From: Kofleriaceae bacterium
GTDB lineage: Bacteria; Myxococcota_A; Polyangia; Haliangiales; Haliangiaceae
Direction: 5' to 3'
NCBI GenBank assembly: GCA_018057825.1
Contig: JAGPCY010000018.1
Span: 1 to 35,085, forward strand
Length of the DNA: 35,085 bases
Both the position numbers and the translations under genes were made by a program. Position 1 is the first letter of the stretch. The number at the start of each line of letters is the position of its first letter. Below the pieces are notes generated by a model. The model was not told where the DNA came from. It was given only the letters and a program-made list of their open reading frames with translations, and made no database searches. Below are positions 2,145 to 29,229 of the stretch, piece after piece.

Positions 2145-2520
2145 TGTGAGGGTTTTTCGAAAAAACCCTCCCCTTTTCGGCTACGCCGAAAAGGGCACCC
2201 CTCCCAAAACGTCCGGATCGCGAGAGGGCGGTGGACGATCTGGGCGGCGGTGGTCGCTCGCGGCCACCGGCGTTCAGCCGCTGTGTGCTGCTGCGCGGTA
2301 TTGCGACGACCTCACACAAAACCCTCCCCTTTTCGGCTACGCCGAAAAGGGCACCCCTCCCAAAACGTCCGGATCGCGGGAGGGCGGTGGACGATCTGGG
2401 CGGCGGTGGTCGACCGAGGCCACCGGCGTTCAGCCACTGTCTGCTGTGTCGAAGTTGCGGGTTTTTCGAAAAAACCCTCCCCCAGCATTCGCTGGGGCCC
2501 CCGCCCAAAACGGCCCAGCT
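2145..2520 (+). repeat. Modular hairpin repeat array between iscS and iscU (3 units)
   Basis: Three units in the same orientation begin right after the iscS stop. A full unit runs: a terminator-like hairpin (2148-2170), a second hairpin, the conserved block CCCTCCCAAAACGTCCGG, a variable GC-rich stretch, then GGCGTTCAGCC(G/A)CTGT. The second hairpin is CCCTTTTCGGC/GCCGAAAAGGG (11-bp stem, loop TAC) in units 1 (2171-2195) and 2 (2327-2351), but CCCCAGC/GCTGGGG (loop ATTC) in unit 3 (2480-2497), which stops soon after. Unit 2 has lost one arm of the first hairpin. The same family, reversed, fills 25005-25797. No believable gene lies here. Confidence 0.85.
2148..2170 (+). terminator. Terminator-like hairpin after iscS
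   Basis: A perfect 10-bp inverted repeat, arms GAGGGTTTTT and AAAAACCCTC with loop CGA, starts 5 nt after the iscS stop codon. There is no separate U-tract; the T run is part of the stem, so termination efficiency is uncertain. An 8-bp version recurs at 2459-2477, and a 10-bp version follows the gene ending at 25807. It may attenuate transcription into iscU. Confidence 0.5.
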
Positions 2521-2568: not shown

Positions 2569-2955
2569 ATGGCGTACTCCGATAAGGTCATCGACCACTA
2601 CGAGAATCCCCGCAACGTCGGCTCCCTGGCCAAGGACGACGAGGACGTCGGCACCGGCCTGGTGGGCGCGCCGGCCTGCGGCGACGTGATGAAGCTGCAG
2701 ATCAAGGTCAAGGACGGAGTCATCGCCGATGCTCGGTTCAAGACCTTCGGCTGCGGCTCGGCGATCGCGTCGTCGTCGCTGGCGACCGAGATGATCAAGG
2801 GCATGACCCTCGAGCAGGCCGCGGCGATCAAGAACACGCAGATCGTCAGCGAACTGAACCTGCCGCCGGTCAAGATCCACTGCTCGGTCCTGGCCGAGGA
2901 CGCGATCAAGGCCGCGATCGAGGACTACAAGCAGAAGCAAGCCGGCAAGTCCTGA
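2569..2955 (+). CDS. iscU: Fe-S cluster assembly scaffold IscU
   Basis: A 128-residue scaffold on which [2Fe-2S] clusters are built from IscS-derived sulfur before transfer by HscA/HscB. The three cluster cysteines are visible: Cys37 (PACGD), Cys62 (GCGSAIASSS) and Cys105 (IHCSVLAED), with the assembly Asp39. The HscA recognition motif LPPVK is at 98-102. Length matches the E. coli family member (128 aa). The start is supported by TGAGGA 7 nt upstream. It is separated from iscS by 425 nt of hairpin repeats, an unusual break, and followed 33 nt later by iscA. Confidence 0.98.
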   Translation: MAYSDKVIDHYENPRNVGSLAKDDEDVGTGLVGAPACGDVMKLQIKVKDGVIADARFKTFGCGSAIASSSLATEMIKGMTLEQAAAIKNTQIVSELNLPPVKIHCSVLAEDAIKAAIEDYKQKQAGKS

Positions 2956-13522: not shown

Positions 13523-13732
13523 GGCCTCGGGCTTTGCCTTCGCCTTGGCCTCGGTCTTTGCCTTCGCCTCGGCCTCGGTCTCGCCTCGCTCTCGGTCTCG
13601 GCCTCGGTCTCGGTCTCGGCCTCGGCCTCGGCCTTGGTCCCGGCCTCGGTCCCGGTCTCGGCCTCGGTCTCAGCCTCCGCCTCGGTCTCGGCCTCGGACT
13701 CCGCCTCGGTCTCGGTCTCGGTCTCGGCCTGA
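13523..13732. repeat. Degenerate GGTCTC/GGCCTC hexamer array
   Basis: About 210 bp of 6-bp units, mostly GGTCTC and GGCCTC with variants GGACTC, GGTCCC and GGCCTT plus small insertions, fill the space between the convergent mrp and Omp85 genes. It is the same microsatellite as at 1-138 but clearly more decayed. Open frames across it only spell Gly-Leu, Ser-Arg or Pro-Arg dipeptide runs and are not believable genes. Confidence 0.9.
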
Positions 13733-13755
13733 GGTCACCACCACCCCACGCTGAA

Positions 13756-22734: not shown

Positions 22735-24000
22735 ATGAAAAAGACGCACGAAAACGAGCTCGGGACGATGGTCGTCCCGATGCTGGATCCCGAGATCGTC
22801 GAGCGGATCCGCCTACTGCAGCAGCTTCGCTGGGGCAGCAAGCGGATCGCGCGTGAGCTGGGCGTGGCGCGCAACAGCGTGCGGCGGTACCTGCGCGGCG
22901 GCGCCGCTGTGGCGGTCCAAGCGCGGCCCAACGCGCGGACGCTCGACGCCGATCAGGCGGCGCTGGCGCGCGAGCTACTGGATGGCGCAGCCGCCGGCAA
23001 CGCCGTCGTCGTGCAGCGGCTGCTCGCGGAGCGCGAGGTCGACGTGCCGCTGCGCACGCTGCAGCGCGCGCTCGAGCCGCACCGCCAGGCGCGACGCGCG
23101 GCGGAGCTCGCGACGGTGCGGTTCGAGACGCTGCCTGGCGCGCAGCTCCAGATCGATTTCGGTGAGAAGTGGATCGCGATCGGCGGCGAGCGCACGAAGG
23201 TGCACCTCTTCGTCGCGGTGCTCGGCTACTCGCGGCGGATCTTCGTGCGCGCGTCGCTGAGTCAGCGGCAGGACGACTGGCGCGAGGGCCTGGCTGCGGC
23301 CTTCCGTACGTTCGGCGGCGTCACGCGCAAGATCCTGATCGACCGCGCCGGCGCGCTCGTGATCGGCCAGGACCGAGAGACCGGCACCGCGCGCATCCAT
23401 CCAGCGTTCGCGGCGTTCTGCAAGGACTGGGGCGTCGAGGTCGCGGCCTGTCGCCCGTACCGCGCACGCACCAAGGGCAAGACTGAGTCGGGCGTCGGCT
23501 ACGTGAAGCGCAACGGGATCGCCGGGCGCGCCTTCGATAGCGTCGCCGCGCTCGAGGCGCACCTCGCGCAGTGGATGCTCGAGGCCGACCGCCGCGTGCA
23601 CGGCACGACGCACGAGCAGCCCTGCGTGCGCTTCGAGCGCGCCGAGCGCGCGGCGCTGCAAGCGCTGCCGGCAGCGCCGCTGCGTGTCCGTGAGCGGCGC
23701 CTGCAGCGCCGGGTCGCGACCGACTGCTTCGTCGACATCGACACCGTGCGCTACAGCGTCCCCCATACGCTGGTACGGCGGCACGTCGAGGTCGTCGTCG
23801 GCGACGCCGAGGTCGTGATCTACGACGGCCGCATCGAGGTCGCCCGCCACCGGCGCAGCACCGAGCCGCACCAGCGCGTCGTGAACCCGCGCCATCTCGA
23901 CGGGCTGTATCGGCGCCGTCACGACGACGCGCCGACCGAGCGCTCGCCCCTGACCCGCAGCCTCGACGTCTACGCCGAGGCCGTCGGAGGTGCGCCATGA
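22735..24000 (+). CDS. istA: IS21 transposase IstA
   Basis: The 421-residue DDE transposase of IS21 elements. An N-terminal helix-turn-helix (IRLLQQLRWGSKRIARELGVARNSVRRYLRGG, about 20-52) binds the terminal repeats. The rve integrase core follows with the catalytic acids in QIDFGEKW (first Asp), ILIDRAGALV (second Asp) and KGKTESGVGYVKRN (Glu). The C-terminal beta-barrel domain (TDCFVDIDTVRYSVPHTLVRRHVEV) is typical. ATG 22735 follows GGAGGG at a proper distance. Its stop overlaps the ATG of istB, the normal IS21 arrangement. Confidence 0.96.
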   Translation: MKKTHENELGTMVVPMLDPEIVERIRLLQQLRWGSKRIARELGVARNSVRRYLRGGAAVAVQARPNARTLDADQAALARELLDGAAAGNAVVVQRLLAEREVDVPLRTLQRALEPHRQARRAAELATVRFETLPGAQLQIDFGEKWIAIGGERTKVHLFVAVLGYSRRIFVRASLSQRQDDWREGLAAAFRTFGGVTRKILIDRAGALVIGQDRETGTARIHPAFAAFCKDWGVEVAACRPYRARTKGKTESGVGYVKRNGIAGRAFDSVAALEAHLAQWMLEADRRVHGTTHEQPCVRFERAERAALQALPAAPLRVRERRLQRRVATDCFVDIDTVRYSVPHTLVRRHVEVVVGDAEVVIYDGRIEVARHRRSTEPHQRVVNPRHLDGLYRRRHDDAPTERSPLTRSLDVYAEAVGGAP

Positions 24001-24773
24001 GCGAGCTGGTGCGGGCGCGCGTCGAGGAGCGACTCGTGAAGCTGCGCCTCGGCGCTGTGGCGCAACGCCTCGATGGGATCCTGTCGGCCGCCGCGCGCGC
24101 CGAGCCGACCTACCTCGACTTCCTCGACCAACTCCTCGCCGAGGAGACCGACGCGAAGCAGAAGAAGCGCGTCGCCATGGGGATCCAGATCGCCCACTTC
24201 CCCGCCGTCAGGACCCTCGAGGAGTTCGACTTCAAGTTCCAGCCCTCCGTCGACCAGAAGCTCGTGCGCGAACTCGCCACCGGGCGCTTCGTCGCGGGCG
24301 CCGAGAACGTGCTGCTCTTCGGTCCGCCCGGCGTCGGCAAGACCCACCTCGCCGTCGCGCTCGGGCGCGCCGTCGTCGAGGCCGGCCACTCCGCGCTGTT
24401 CGTCACCGCGACCTCGTTGCTCGCCACGCTGGCCAAGGCCCAGCAGGAAGGGAAGCTCGCCGACCAGATCGCCTTCTACGCCAAACCCAAGCTGCTCATC
24501 ATCGACGAACTGGGCTACCTGCCCCTCGAGAAGCACACCGCCAACCTGTTCTTCCAGCTCGTCAGTCGACGCTACGAGCGCGGCAGCATGCTCATCACCA
24601 CCAACCAAACTATCACCCAGTGGGGCCACGTCTTCGGCGACGAGATGATCGCATCCGCCGTCCTCGACCGCGTGCTCCACCACAGCCACACCCTGCTCAT
24701 CCAAGGCGACAGCTACCGCCTCAAGCAGAAGAAACGAGCCGGGCTCCTCGGCTCAACCAAGACCAACCACTGA
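23997..24773 (+). CDS. istB: IS21 helper ATPase IstB
   Basis: A 258-residue AAA+ ATPase (DnaC-like) that assembles on target DNA and stimulates the IstA transposase. The N-terminal helical domain (LRLGAVAQRLDGIL, EPTYLDFLDQLLAEE) precedes Walker A GPPGVGKTHLA (about 109-119), Walker B LLIIDELGYLPL, sensor 1 MLITTNQ and the C-terminal LLHHSHTLLIQGDSYRLK. It overlaps istA by 4 nt. The end of the gene lies 10 nt before the right terminal repeat. Confidence 0.97.
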   Translation: MSELVRARVEERLVKLRLGAVAQRLDGILSAAARAEPTYLDFLDQLLAEETDAKQKKRVAMGIQIAHFPAVRTLEEFDFKFQPSVDQKLVRELATGRFVAGAENVLLFGPPGVGKTHLAVALGRAVVEAGHSALFVTATSLLATLAKAQQEGKLADQIAFYAKPKLLIIDELGYLPLEKHTANLFFQLVSRRYERGSMLITTNQTITQWGHVFGDEMIASAVLDRVLHHSHTLLIQGDSYRLKQKKRAGLLGSTKTNH

Positions 24774-24838: not shown

Positions 24839-25004
24839 ATCCACCCGGGCTGCCCTCCCGTCGGAGCTCGCGAGGTCGGCGCCAGCGCCGGGCCTCCCTC
24901 GCGGGCGGCCGGCCCCCGCCTCCTCTGTGCTCCCACCACTGGTCCCGGAGTACCCGTCACACGTCCGCGTCTCGCAACGGCATTCAAACCGTTCGCTGCT
25001 CTCG
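24839..25004. other. Unassigned intergenic DNA right of the IS
   Basis: About 165 bp with no convincing gene, hairpin or promoter. It continues the frame open across the IS (see 22315-22660) and runs directly into the repeat array. Confidence 0.4.
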
Positions 25005-25797
25005 CGAATGCTGGGGGAGTGTTTGACCGGGGTCACCACCCTCGGAGGTGCAAGCAGACCGCGGCTGAACGCCGGCCCTCACGCAACAACGCCGCCGGTG
25101 AAACCGACGGCGACGCTCCCGCGATCCGGACGTTTTGGGAGGGGGCCCTAGAGCCGCGAATGCTAGGGGAGGGTTTGACCGGGGTCACCACCCTCGGAGG
25201 TGCAAGCAGACCGCGGCTGAACGCCGGCCCTCACGCAACAACGCCGCCGGTGAAACCGACGGCGACGCTTCCGCGATCCGGACCTCTGGACGAAGGTGGG
25301 AGGGGGCCCCAGCGAATGCTGGGGGAGGGTTTGTCCGAGGTCACCGCGCACTGCGCTGAAGCAGACAGCGGCTGAACGCCGGCCCTCACGCAACAACGCC
25401 GCCGGTGAGATCACCGGCGACGCTCCCGCGATCCGGACGTTTTGGGAGGGGGCCCCAGCGAATGCTGGGGGAGGGTTTGACCGGGGTCACCACCCTCGGA
25501 GGTGCATGCAGACAGCGGCTGAACGCCGGCCCTCACGCAACAACGCCGCCGGTGAAACCGACGGCGACGCTTCCGCGATCCGGACCTCTGGACGAAGGTG
25601 GGAGGGGGCCCCAGCGAATGCTGGGGGAGGGTTTGTCCGAGGTCACCGCGCACTGCGCTGAAGCAGACAGCGGCTGAACGCCGGCCCTCACGCAACAACG
25701 CCGCCGGTGAGATCACCGGCGACGCTCCCGCGATCCGGACGTTTTGGGAGGGGGCCCCAGCGAATGCTGGGGGAGGGTTTTTGTGAAAAACCCTCTG
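25005..25797 (-). repeat. Modular hairpin repeat array, five units
   Basis: Five units of about 150 bp, read on the minus strand away from the gene ending at 25807, share the building blocks seen at 2145-2520: first hairpin (only next to the gene), second hairpin CCCCAGC/GCTGGGG (25755-25772, 25609-25626, 25453-25470, 25307-25324), the block CCCTCCCAAAACGTCCGG or a variant, a GC-rich middle, and GGCGTTCAGCCGCTGTCTGC. Two alternating unit types create a near-identical 302-bp tandem duplication (about 25165-25467 and 25467-25769). In the outer unit the second hairpin reads CCCTAG...CTAGGG (25146-25168), a paired change. Small open frames inside are repeat artefacts. Confidence 0.88.
25773..25795 (-). 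terminator. Terminator-like hairpin after the barrel-protein gene
   Basis: Arms GAGGGTTTTT and AAAAACCCTC form a perfect 10-bp stem with a 3-nt loop, 11 nt after the stop codon of the gene ending at 25807. It is identical in both arms to the hairpin after iscS (2148-2170); only the loop differs. Confidence 0.5.
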
Positions 25798-25806
25798 AAT
25801 ATTGGA

Positions 25807-26670
25807 TCACCGCGTGCGCTTGGCCTTCATCGGCAGCATGATCGACACGCCGACGCCCGCGAAGAGGTGGTGCAGGAAGCGCGAGTCGTCGTCGGTGACG
25901 GCGAGGTCGGCGTTGAAGTCCGCACCGGAGGGGTTGTCGACGAAGGCGTAGTCGCGGATCGCCAGGTCGATCGCGATGAAGTCGTTGAGGAAGACGTGGA
26001 TGCCGCCGCCCAGGTAGAGGCCGGGCTTGAAGCCGCTGTTGAGCGGCGAGTCGTCGTTGGGGTTGTCGTCGGGCACCATGTTGCCGCCGACCATCTCGGG
26101 GGCGCCCGGATCGGGGTCGTCGCACACGGTGGTGTCGCAGCTCGACTGCAGGAGCGCGAAGGCCACGCCGCCCTGGAAGTAGAAGTCGAAGTTGACGAAC
26201 GCCTTGCCGAAGGCGGCGAGCTTGCCGTACCACGGGGTCACGCTGACGTAGGCGGCGCCGTGGAAGGGCAGCTTGTTCAGGTGCTGCTGGAACTCGGTCT
26301 TGCTCGGCTCGCGGCTGCCCGACGACGCGCCCGGCAGGGGCGGCGGGTCGGACTCCTCGAGGGTGTTGATGATGCGCGTGGTGAGCGCGGTGTCGATCGA
26401 GGCCGAGCCGACGCCGATCGCGCCGAACGACAGCATGTCGTTGACGTGGTACTCGAGCTTCAGGCCACCGCCGATGAAGTGGCGGAAGTCGGCGTTGAGC
26501 GTCGCCTCGAACAGCGGGGTGGCCTCGAGGCGCTTGGCGACCAGGAGCACGCGGTGGCGAACCGCGGGCTGGCTGGCGAGGTCGTCGGTCGAACGGTCGG
26601 CGAAGGCCGTGGTCGGCGCGGCGAGGAGCGCTGCCGCCAAGGCACCAAAGACGAATCGCGACATGGTCAT
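25807..26670 (-). CDS. Outer-membrane beta-barrel protein (Myxococcota type)
   Basis: A 287-residue protein with a signal peptide (about 1-24, cleavage after TAFA) and alternating amphipathic strands fitting an eight-strand-type barrel: FIGGGLKLEYHVNDMLSFGAIGVG, FVNFDFYFQGGVAFALLQ, FLNDFIAIDLAIRDYAFVD, LFAGVGVSIMLP. It resembles the outer-membrane beta-barrel-domain proteins that occur in families in Myxococcota. A long loop near the middle holds two cysteines in CDTTVCDD. It is a paralog of the gene immediately upstream (shared WYGK/VYGK, FLN-IRDY-FVD pattern), 20 nt away, so the two form an operon. Function unknown; a structural or gliding-related envelope role would be speculation. Confidence 0.85.
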   Translation of the reverse strand: MTMSRFVFGALAAALLAAPTTAFADRSTDDLASQPAVRHRVLLVAKRLEATPLFEATLNADFRHFIGGGLKLEYHVNDMLSFGAIGVGSASIDTALTTRIINTLEESDPPPLPGASSGSREPSKTEFQQHLNKLPFHGAAYVSVTPWYGKLAAFGKAFVNFDFYFQGGVAFALLQSSCDTTVCDDPDPGAPEMVGGNMVPDDNPNDDSPLNSGFKPGLYLGGGIHVFLNDFIAIDLAIRDYAFVDNPSGADFNADLAVTDDDSRFLHHLFAGVGVSIMLPMKAKRTR

Positions 26671-27750: not shown

Positions 27751-27900
27751 GACCGCGGCGCCATTCGATGGTTGCAGCTGTGCGTGGAACGGTCACCCTG
27801 GGTCGGTGGCCGGGCCGGCCGCGATCCGTCTCTCGAGCGCGATCCTCGACGGCGCCGGCTGGCAGATCCCCCGGCCGGGCCGGACGAACCGGACGCCGCC

Positions 27901-27988
27901 GCGGGCTGCCTCTGCCGCCGCCGCGGGCTGCCTCTGCCGCCGCCGCGGGCTGCCTCTGCCGCCGCCGCGGGCTGCCTCTGCCGCCGCC
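27901..27988. repeat. 22-bp tandem repeat, four copies
   Basis: Four exact copies of a 22-bp unit (GCGGGCTGCCTCTGCCGCCG plus CC) start at 27901, 27923, 27945 and 27967, followed by a partial GCC run. They lie just 3' of the ftsY stop. The 22-bp unit shifts frame each copy and does not extend ftsY, whose stop is at 28000-28002. Perfect identity suggests recent or ongoing slippage. Confidence 0.92.
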
Positions 27989-27999
27989 GCGCCGCCCGG

Positions 28000-29229
28000 T
28001 CACCCGGGCGCGTCTTCGTACAGCGCGGCCACGAAGGCGGCCGGGTCGAAGGGCCGCAGGTCCTCGAGCTTCTCGCCGACCCCGACGTAGCGCACGGGCA
28101 CCCGCAGCTCATCGCAGATGCCGAGGATCACGCCGCCCTTGGCCGAGCCATCGAGCTTGGTGATCACGATGCCGGTGATCTCCATGGCGTCCTTGAAGGT
28201 CTTGGCCTGGTTGATCGCGTTCTGGCCGGTGGTGGCGTCGAGGACCATCCAGGTCTCGTGGGGGGCGCCGGGCATGGCCTTGTCGATCACCCGCCGCACC
28301 TTCTTGAGCTCGTCCATCAGGTCGGACTTGGTGTGCAAGCGGCCGGCGGTGTCGCAGATCACGATGTCGGCGCCGTCGTCGACGCCGCGCTTGACCGCCT
28401 CGAAGATGACCGACGAGGGGTCGCCGCCCTCCTTGCCGCGGACGACCGGGCAGTTGGCCCGCTTGCCCCACACCTCGAGCTGCTCGGCGGCGGCGGCGCG
28501 GAAGGTGTCGCCGGCCCCCAGGACGACCCGCTTGCCGTCGGCGGCGAGCAGGGCGGCGAGCTTGCCGATCGTGGTGGTCTTGCCGACCCCGTTGACCCCG
28601 AGCACGAGGAGCACCGTGGGGCGCTTGGCCGACCAGTCGAGGGCCGGCGCGCCGACGTCGAGGATCTGGGTCGAGGTCCAGCGGATCCGGTCCCAGATCT
28701 TGTCGGCGTTCTCGAGGTCGTCCTTGGACAGGCTCTTCTTGACCGACTCGAAGATCCGGTCGGCGGCCCGCGGCCCGATGTCGGCGGTGAACAGCACCTC
28801 CTCGAGCGCGGGCAGGACGTCCTCGTCGATCTTCTTCTTGCCGAACAGCTTGCCCAGCTTGGCGACGAAGCCGCCGCGGGTCTTGGCTAGGCCGGCCCGG
28901 TAGGCGTCGGTGGCGTCGCTCGACGGGGCGGCGACCGCGGCGCCGTCGGCCGCCGCGGGGGTCTCGGTCTCGTCGTCGTCGTCGTCGTCGTCCTCGTCGT
29001 CGTCGCGCTTCGGCGGTGGGGCGGCCGGGCGCGACCGCCCACCGGCGGCGGGGCGGCGCTTGCGCTCGCGCGGCCGGCGCTCGCGCTCCGGCGCGGCCGG
29101 GCCGACCACGCGCTCTTGCATCGACCGGGCGCTCTGCGCGCGGCTCTTGTCGCCGGCTCGACGCAGGAACCAGATGAACAGGCCGATCACCGCCAGCACG
29201 GCCACAAACGTGAGGATCTCGCGGACCAT
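28000..29229 (-). CDS. ftsY: Signal recognition particle receptor FtsY
   Basis: A 409-residue SRP GTPase that docks ribosome-nascent chain complexes carrying Ffh/4.5S RNA at the membrane. An N-terminal membrane helix (about 3-24, [18 protein letters not shown]) is followed by a basic Arg/Pro segment and an Asp/Glu run (about 77-90), which replace the long acidic A domain of E. coli FtsY. The NG domain follows: G1 [10 protein letters not shown] (about 210-219), G2 [12 protein letters not shown]3 DTAGR, G4 [10 protein letters not shown] and the closing [15 protein letters not shown] 29229 is chosen because it gives the membrane helix. It lies 11 nt after the upstream gene, hence an operon. Confidence 0.96.

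Follow-up and report, generated by a model that had tools for sequence, protein, structure and literature searches.

The core of the element consists of a hairpin (H1), a second hairpin (H2) and a C-rich unpaired block, in this order, and lies in the sense orientation 0–16 nt past the stop codons of about a hundred genes. It is described here for a Kofleriaceae bacterium, whose draft assembly (8.9 Mb, 84 contigs) is called the source genome; the window is the whole stretch analysed, 35,085 nt of contig JAGPCY010000018.1, and contains two arrays of the element. It forms a lineage-specific, non-coding, REP-like family, and, judged from the sequences, there is about an even chance that it acts in mRNA as a 3' or intercistronic barrier.

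Structure of the array behind iscS

The iscS gene (860–2143, + strand) ends with a TAG stop codon at 2141–2143, and the array starts behind this stop. H1 of unit 1, GAGGGTTTTTCGAAAAAACCCTC, begins 4 nt past the stop and occupies 2148–2170 (+); sequence and fold show a perfect 10-bp stem with the arms GAGGGTTTTT and AAAAACCCTC. H2 of unit 1, CCCTTTTCGGC-TAC-GCCGAAAAGGG, is at 2171–2195 (+) and forms, by the same evidence, an 11-bp stem of the TTTTCGGC type. The conserved block of this unit, CCCTCCCAAAACGTCCGG, is at 2199–2216 (+). The succession of a 10-bp hairpin, a second hairpin and a conserved block reported in the initial annotation was thus confirmed by direct reading of the sequence.

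Two models were used: a covariance model for the long unit (R1) and a model for the H1-H2 core (R2). The R2 match at 2148–2195 corresponds to H1 and H2 of unit 1. R1 placed long unit 1 at 2156–2320 (+; 137.1 bits, E 1.0e-28) and long unit 2 at 2312–2474 (+; 117.4 bits). Unit 2 shows 95% identity with unit 1 over 129 nt and has the same H2, and its H1 is reduced to the right arm. Unit 3 (2457–2520, +) was matched by R2 at 2457–2497 (61.2 bits) and by R1 with 53.5 bits. Its H1 at 2457–2479 has one mismatch, its H2 at 2480–2497 is swapped for CCCCAGCATTCGCTGGGG (CCCCAGC-ATTC-GCTGGGG), and it ends with the block CCGCCCAAAACGGCCC. The second hairpin therefore does differ between units of this array, an 11-bp stem in one case and a 7-bp CCCCAGC stem in the other, as had been claimed.

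The region 2141–2270 folds at −69.3 kcal/mol; the mean of the shuffled sequences is −50.1 kcal/mol (z −4.9), and none of 200 shuffles was as stable. Rfam gave no match at the gathering score within the window. The downstream gene of the split operon, iscU, is at 2569–2955 (+). In sequence comparisons with congeners, the iscS orthologues are 79–89% identical and iscU is the next gene downstream.

Second array and associated repeats

The same modules recur at a second site, again 3' of a gene, as had been noted before. This gene (25807–26670, −) encodes an outer-membrane-protein-like product, and its congener orthologue likewise has the element. H1 and H2 of the first unit are at 25755–25795 (−; R2, 66.7 bits), 11 nt past the stop codon. 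Five head-to-tail long units were matched by R1 at 25022–25787 (−), so that the array extends from 25795 to 25022 and, with the three units behind iscS, the eight units counted previously are all accounted for.

The tail of the array (24957–25004, −) reads as the left end of a terminal-inverted-repeat (TIR) element inside an H2. The TIR element is ~175 bp long, its terminal inverted repeats (AGAGCACCGAACGGTTTGAATGCC...GGCATCTCAAACCGTTCGGTGCTCT) measure ~24 bp, and its left end has ~30 matches in the genome; besides the truncated copy in the window, it is found at L188, L143, L145, L314, L317, L320 and L324–L327. Several copies are located at exactly one identical point within the H2 of units. 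IS1397 and IS621 insert into REP loops, and the TIR element resembles them in its position within the H2 of several units, but it is short (~175 bp), non-coding and always at the same point. This means that it may have spread together with the unit, not by targeting. The H2 variant CCCTAGCATTCGCGGCTCTAGGG at 25146–25168 (−) is possibly the remnant or scar of a TIR element lost from the hairpin loop.

Other repeats were observed in the surroundings. An IS21-like istA/istB pair (22735–24773, +), assigned from ORF translations, adjoins the tail of the second array. Intergenic hexanucleotide arrays, (GGTCTC/GGCCTC)n, are at 1–140 and 13540–13735 of the window and also at L315, L318 and L323; such arrays also abut the ends of hairpin arrays. 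Comparable GGATCCC or GGAGCC repeats lie directly behind some single elements in G003, the metagenome-assembled genome (MAG) of a congener. A 22-bp tandem repeat, CGCCGCCGCGGGCTGCCTCTGC, is present in about five copies at 27894–28003 of the window.

Genome-wide distribution and species range

The initial annotation postulated a dispersed, non-autonomous repeat family, and the covariance-model search of the genome and its relatives bore this out. The source genome has 132 long units (R1, E ≤ 0.01) and 114 H1-H2 double hairpins (R2); G003 shares the family with at least 140 double hairpins, and the family is nearly absent from the other relatives. In the 33 remaining genomes of the order, R2 had no match except a marginal one in G006. 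For the H1 pattern, 69 matches were found in the source genome, 89 in G003 and none in 54 other relatives; the reversed-pattern control gave zero matches. Among ~85,000 named species, the H1 pattern was found only in "Myxococcales bacterium MAG-81", whose gene content matches that of G003, and in one contig labelled Lysobacter (L288, JADZBF010000103.1). This contig, itself from a MAG, is probably misbinned; the element is behind the orthologue of the gene that precedes it in both species (L125/L259).

A phage origin was rejected, as none of 2.9 million viral contigs contains the H1 pattern. A genus-wide habit of placing hairpins past stop codons was also rejected: in samples of two other congeners, only 4 of 121 genes in one and 5 of 91 in the other had such a hairpin. 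Searches of the literature on myxobacterial repeats yielded nothing relevant. An unrelated hairpin, GGGAGNCGGGACGNCTCCC, together with CCCCCATCCGGGA, is present in small numbers in G006, G009 and G010 (L225–L235), which represent one congener and other genera. Several of its copies are 6–10 nt past stop codons, also behind iscS (G009, G006). This hairpin might be an independent or highly diverged counterpart of the family.

The two species differ in the arrangement of the copies. The source genome has 62 sites with one to four strong long units each, arranged head to tail with a period of ~150 bp (unit lengths vary, ~147–176 nt), and all 39 clusters detected in G003 are single copies. Units of the source genome are on average 78% identical within one array versus 56% between arrays. 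From this similarity and the single copies in G003, the amplification into arrays was probably recent, local and species-specific. Internal units of arrays usually have the right H1 arm without the left one, which means that H1 mainly marks the gene-proximal end.

Position relative to stop codons

The initial annotation also proposed a preference for gene 3' ends, and the distances and orientations agree with it: the elements are on the sense strand of the preceding gene at a narrow spacing just past its stop. In ~0.94 Mb chosen around source-genome sites and congener loci, with approximate gene calls from a home-made caller that misses some small genes, 52 of the 59 array starts with an upstream ORF in the source genome are located between −2 and +15 nt relative to a same-strand stop, as are ~66 of 75 matches (−2 to +16 nt) in G003. 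The corresponding fractions for random points are 8.7% and 8.3% (binomial P ~1e-47 and ~1e-61), sites shared by both species not being independent observations. The distances peak at 6–8 nt. Where the distance is −2 nt, as in rpoZ (L148) and rplK (L145), the TGA within TGAGGG serves as the stop codon.

The element is also present behind tRNA genes (L085, L153, L257). The downstream neighbour is on the same or the opposite strand in a ratio of 36:22, versus 329:208 for all genes (P = 1); this means that operon ends are not preferred. Convergent gene pairs can have one copy per gene (L123, L133). Only about 1–2% of genes have the element, which thus is not a general 3'-end device.

Conservation of sites and pairing

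At least 17 orthologous genes have the element in both species, as compared with 0.8 expected by chance. At the 17 shared sites, H1 and/or H2 often differ in sequence with the pairing intact. Behind SSB, for example, H1 has TTTTT/AAAAA in one species versus TCTTT/AAAGA in the other, and H2 is AGCATTCGCT versus ACAAGACGT. In 30 distinct 41-nt cores, 98.2% of the cells are paired, and double changes were found in 32 cells versus 11.0 in shuffles; the covariation score was above 500 of 500 shuffles and above every slid control. The earlier suggestion that structure rather than sequence is kept in the second hairpin is supported by this covariation, and it is true of the first hairpin too. RNAalifold gave only a weak common fold for whole 158-nt units, which means that the conserved structure is H1-H2 and not the entire unit.

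Selection at the RNA level is expected to leave some G–U intermediates. No one-sided G–U intermediates were seen among the covarying pairs of the 30 distinct cores, so that spread of whole variants or maintenance of palindromes at the DNA level is equally compatible with the data. In addition, the variants form few subfamilies and thus represent few independent compensatory events. H2 has at least seven sequence types. Most arrays of the source genome hold one type, and some mix two, such as the array behind iscS in the window. The dominant hairpin types differ between the source genome and G003, and such species-typical types suggest a genome-wide homogenisation.

Elements within operons

The element lies within groES-groEL, rplK-rplA, infC-rpmI and iscS-iscU. 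The groES-groEL gap is 328 nt in the source genome and 182 nt in G003, both with the element, and 14–81 nt without hairpins in 13 relatives. Similarly, the iscS-iscU gap is 425 nt and 193 nt with the element, and 9–178 nt elsewhere. Five congeners of the genus are without the element in groES-groEL and, where compared, in iscS-iscU. Since the two gaps are longer only where the element is present, the operons most likely existed first and received it in an ancestor shared by both species.

According to Pfam, the genes before the element include those for SSB, EF-Ts, IF-1, IF-2, IF-3, ClpX, the ribosomal proteins L27 and L11, the omega subunit of RNA polymerase, LexA, GyrB, PrkA, BamA and GroES, among others. 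GroEL and L1 directly follow two of the sites, and L35 and L20, as read from ORF translations, follow the element behind IF-3. Translation genes make up 6 of 52 upstream genes (a rough P of 1.5e-4, with an assumed background of 110 translation genes in 7000).

Comparison with known repeat families

REP elements (PMC3733652, PMC2817692) served as the comparison family. REP/BIME sequences, which are GTAG-tagged, RAYT-associated and found in gammaproteobacteria, are high-copy intergenic palindromes, mostly downstream of ORFs and clustered; they sometimes provide the stop codon, and their pairing is kept by complementary changes. The family described here shares these properties, with more than 100 intergenic palindromic copies per genome. 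It differs in its strict sense orientation a few nucleotides past the stop and in having two different hairpins per element. No GT(A/G)G head was found before the palindromes: the bases before H1 vary, and those before H2 are CCCTC. The units of an array are all on one strand, head to tail, and do not alternate as in REP/BIME. Profile PF01797 (Y1_Tnp), representing RAYT, had no match in the source genome, and a RAYT-driven REP was rejected on this ground. G003 has 17 PF01797 matches; the ~1.5 kb inspected to either side of the one at L198 contained no H1, and others are, by their coordinates, far from H1 sites. Therefore, the REP/BIME-like character initially considered possible holds for the behaviour and not for membership: without the GTRG head, RAYT and alternating units, this is a new REP-like family.

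CGTC-tagged REPs that have no dedicated transposase (PMC3733652) are similar in being REP-like with no known transposase and in that some of their families are species-specific. The CGTC tag, however, is not conserved here between units or species: the C-rich block is followed by CGTC in some source-genome units, and by GGCC or GCGAG in others and in the congener. As to MITE features, no terminal inverted repeats were seen at the unit ends, and in the groES-groEL comparison the gap is simply longer.

MIRUs of mycobacteria are tandem, minisatellite-like arrays that occupy intercistronic sites in operons, near stop codons, and are oriented with transcription. They carry small ORFs and do not consist of paired hairpins. 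Set beside them by description only, the present family is similar in its tandem copies at intercistronic operon sites in the direction of transcription and different in its paired hairpins.

Proposed function and alternative explanations

The barrier model, to which even chances were given above, takes the element to protect the upstream message from 3'-to-5' decay, by analogy with galE of E. coli, whose polarity is set by an 8-bp hairpin that blocks exonucleases (PMC11925234). Both the galE hairpin and the REPs that stabilise mRNA in E. coli resemble the present case as hairpins between genes of one operon (PMC11925234); galE is a single evolved site, whereas here a dispersed repeated family would have this effect. 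When the mRNA is processed or prematurely terminated downstream, the stacked GC-rich hairpins would halt 3'-to-5' exonucleases. The stable upstream mRNA left by this block might then allow, for example, a higher expression of iscS or groES than of the distal iscU or groEL. A hairpin so near the stop may also slow the terminating ribosome; in E. coli, REPs less than 16 nt from the stop are reported to lower translation (PMC12306157, citing its reference 17). The element probably changes the protein yield of the mRNA in the shared operons. Tentatively, the sequences might also reflect a young repeat system that arose in the ancestor of the two species, settled exactly past the stops of core genes in essential operons and re-tuned their stoichiometry, its palindromes being copied and homogenised across the genome, with exchanged hairpin sequences and intact pairing, by a RAYT-independent process that targets gene 3' ends.

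It is rather unlikely, but conceivable, that the family is selfish or neutral DNA with no function for the host. In this view, a non-autonomous palindrome, either mobile or prone to conversion, would be recognised in its DNA hairpin form and would insert past stop codons because it does least harm there. Its confinement to two sister species, the species-specific hairpin types expected from genome-wide homogenisation, the lack of G–U intermediates, the ordinary neighbour orientation and the tandem amplification in one species only would be consistent with such an origin. However, the retention of at least 17 orthologous sites with pairing kept, the excess of core, highly expressed genes, the very narrow spacing from the stop and the preservation within groES-groEL, a sensitive operon, in both species argue against it; moreover, no transposase able to move the element was found.

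An effect at the level of translation alone seems unlikely. The terminating ribosome would meet the hairpin 0–16 nt past the stop, and slowed release or recycling would tune the upstream gene or a coupled downstream gene. The spacing, with its peak at 6–8 nt, is within the <16-nt zone of the E. coli REPs (PMC12306157, citing its reference 17), but such an effect accounts neither for the copies behind untranslated tRNA genes nor for the second hairpin and the C-rich block.

The mobile terminator or attenuator of the initial annotation, whether intrinsic or Rho-dependent, would lower the expression of distal genes. Although the 3' position, the stable hairpins and the splitting of operons fit this role, and the C-rich unpaired stretches could load Rho, it is disfavoured and quite improbable. 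There is no terminator-like sense-strand site or U-tract in 2100–2600, and the frequency of sites with a hairpin and a T-rich stretch does not clearly exceed that in random stretches (11/75 vs 18/300; 11/62 vs 44/300). The neighbour ratios show no convergent bias, and full termination within essential operons such as groES-groEL or rplK-rplA would require a new promoter each time; a sigma-70-like promoter was not found before iscU. A terminator on the opposite strand, where H2 is followed by GAGGGTTTTT and a scan does find such sites at 2195–2171 and 2497–2480 (−), is very improbable, since the T-run begins 5 nt past the stem and is broken to TCTTT or GCTTT in most congener copies together with the matching A-run, so that pairing is kept and the T-tract is not.

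That a REP-like family keeps strictly to the sense orientation in a genome without RAYT implies that another route of dispersal probably exists. The two species with intercistronic hairpins in essential operons and the five congeners without them in groES-groEL and, where compared, in iscS-iscU constitute a natural experiment. In orthologous operons that have or lack the element, the ratio of distal to proximal expression would bear on whether it is a selfish passenger or a regulator of mRNA 3' ends.
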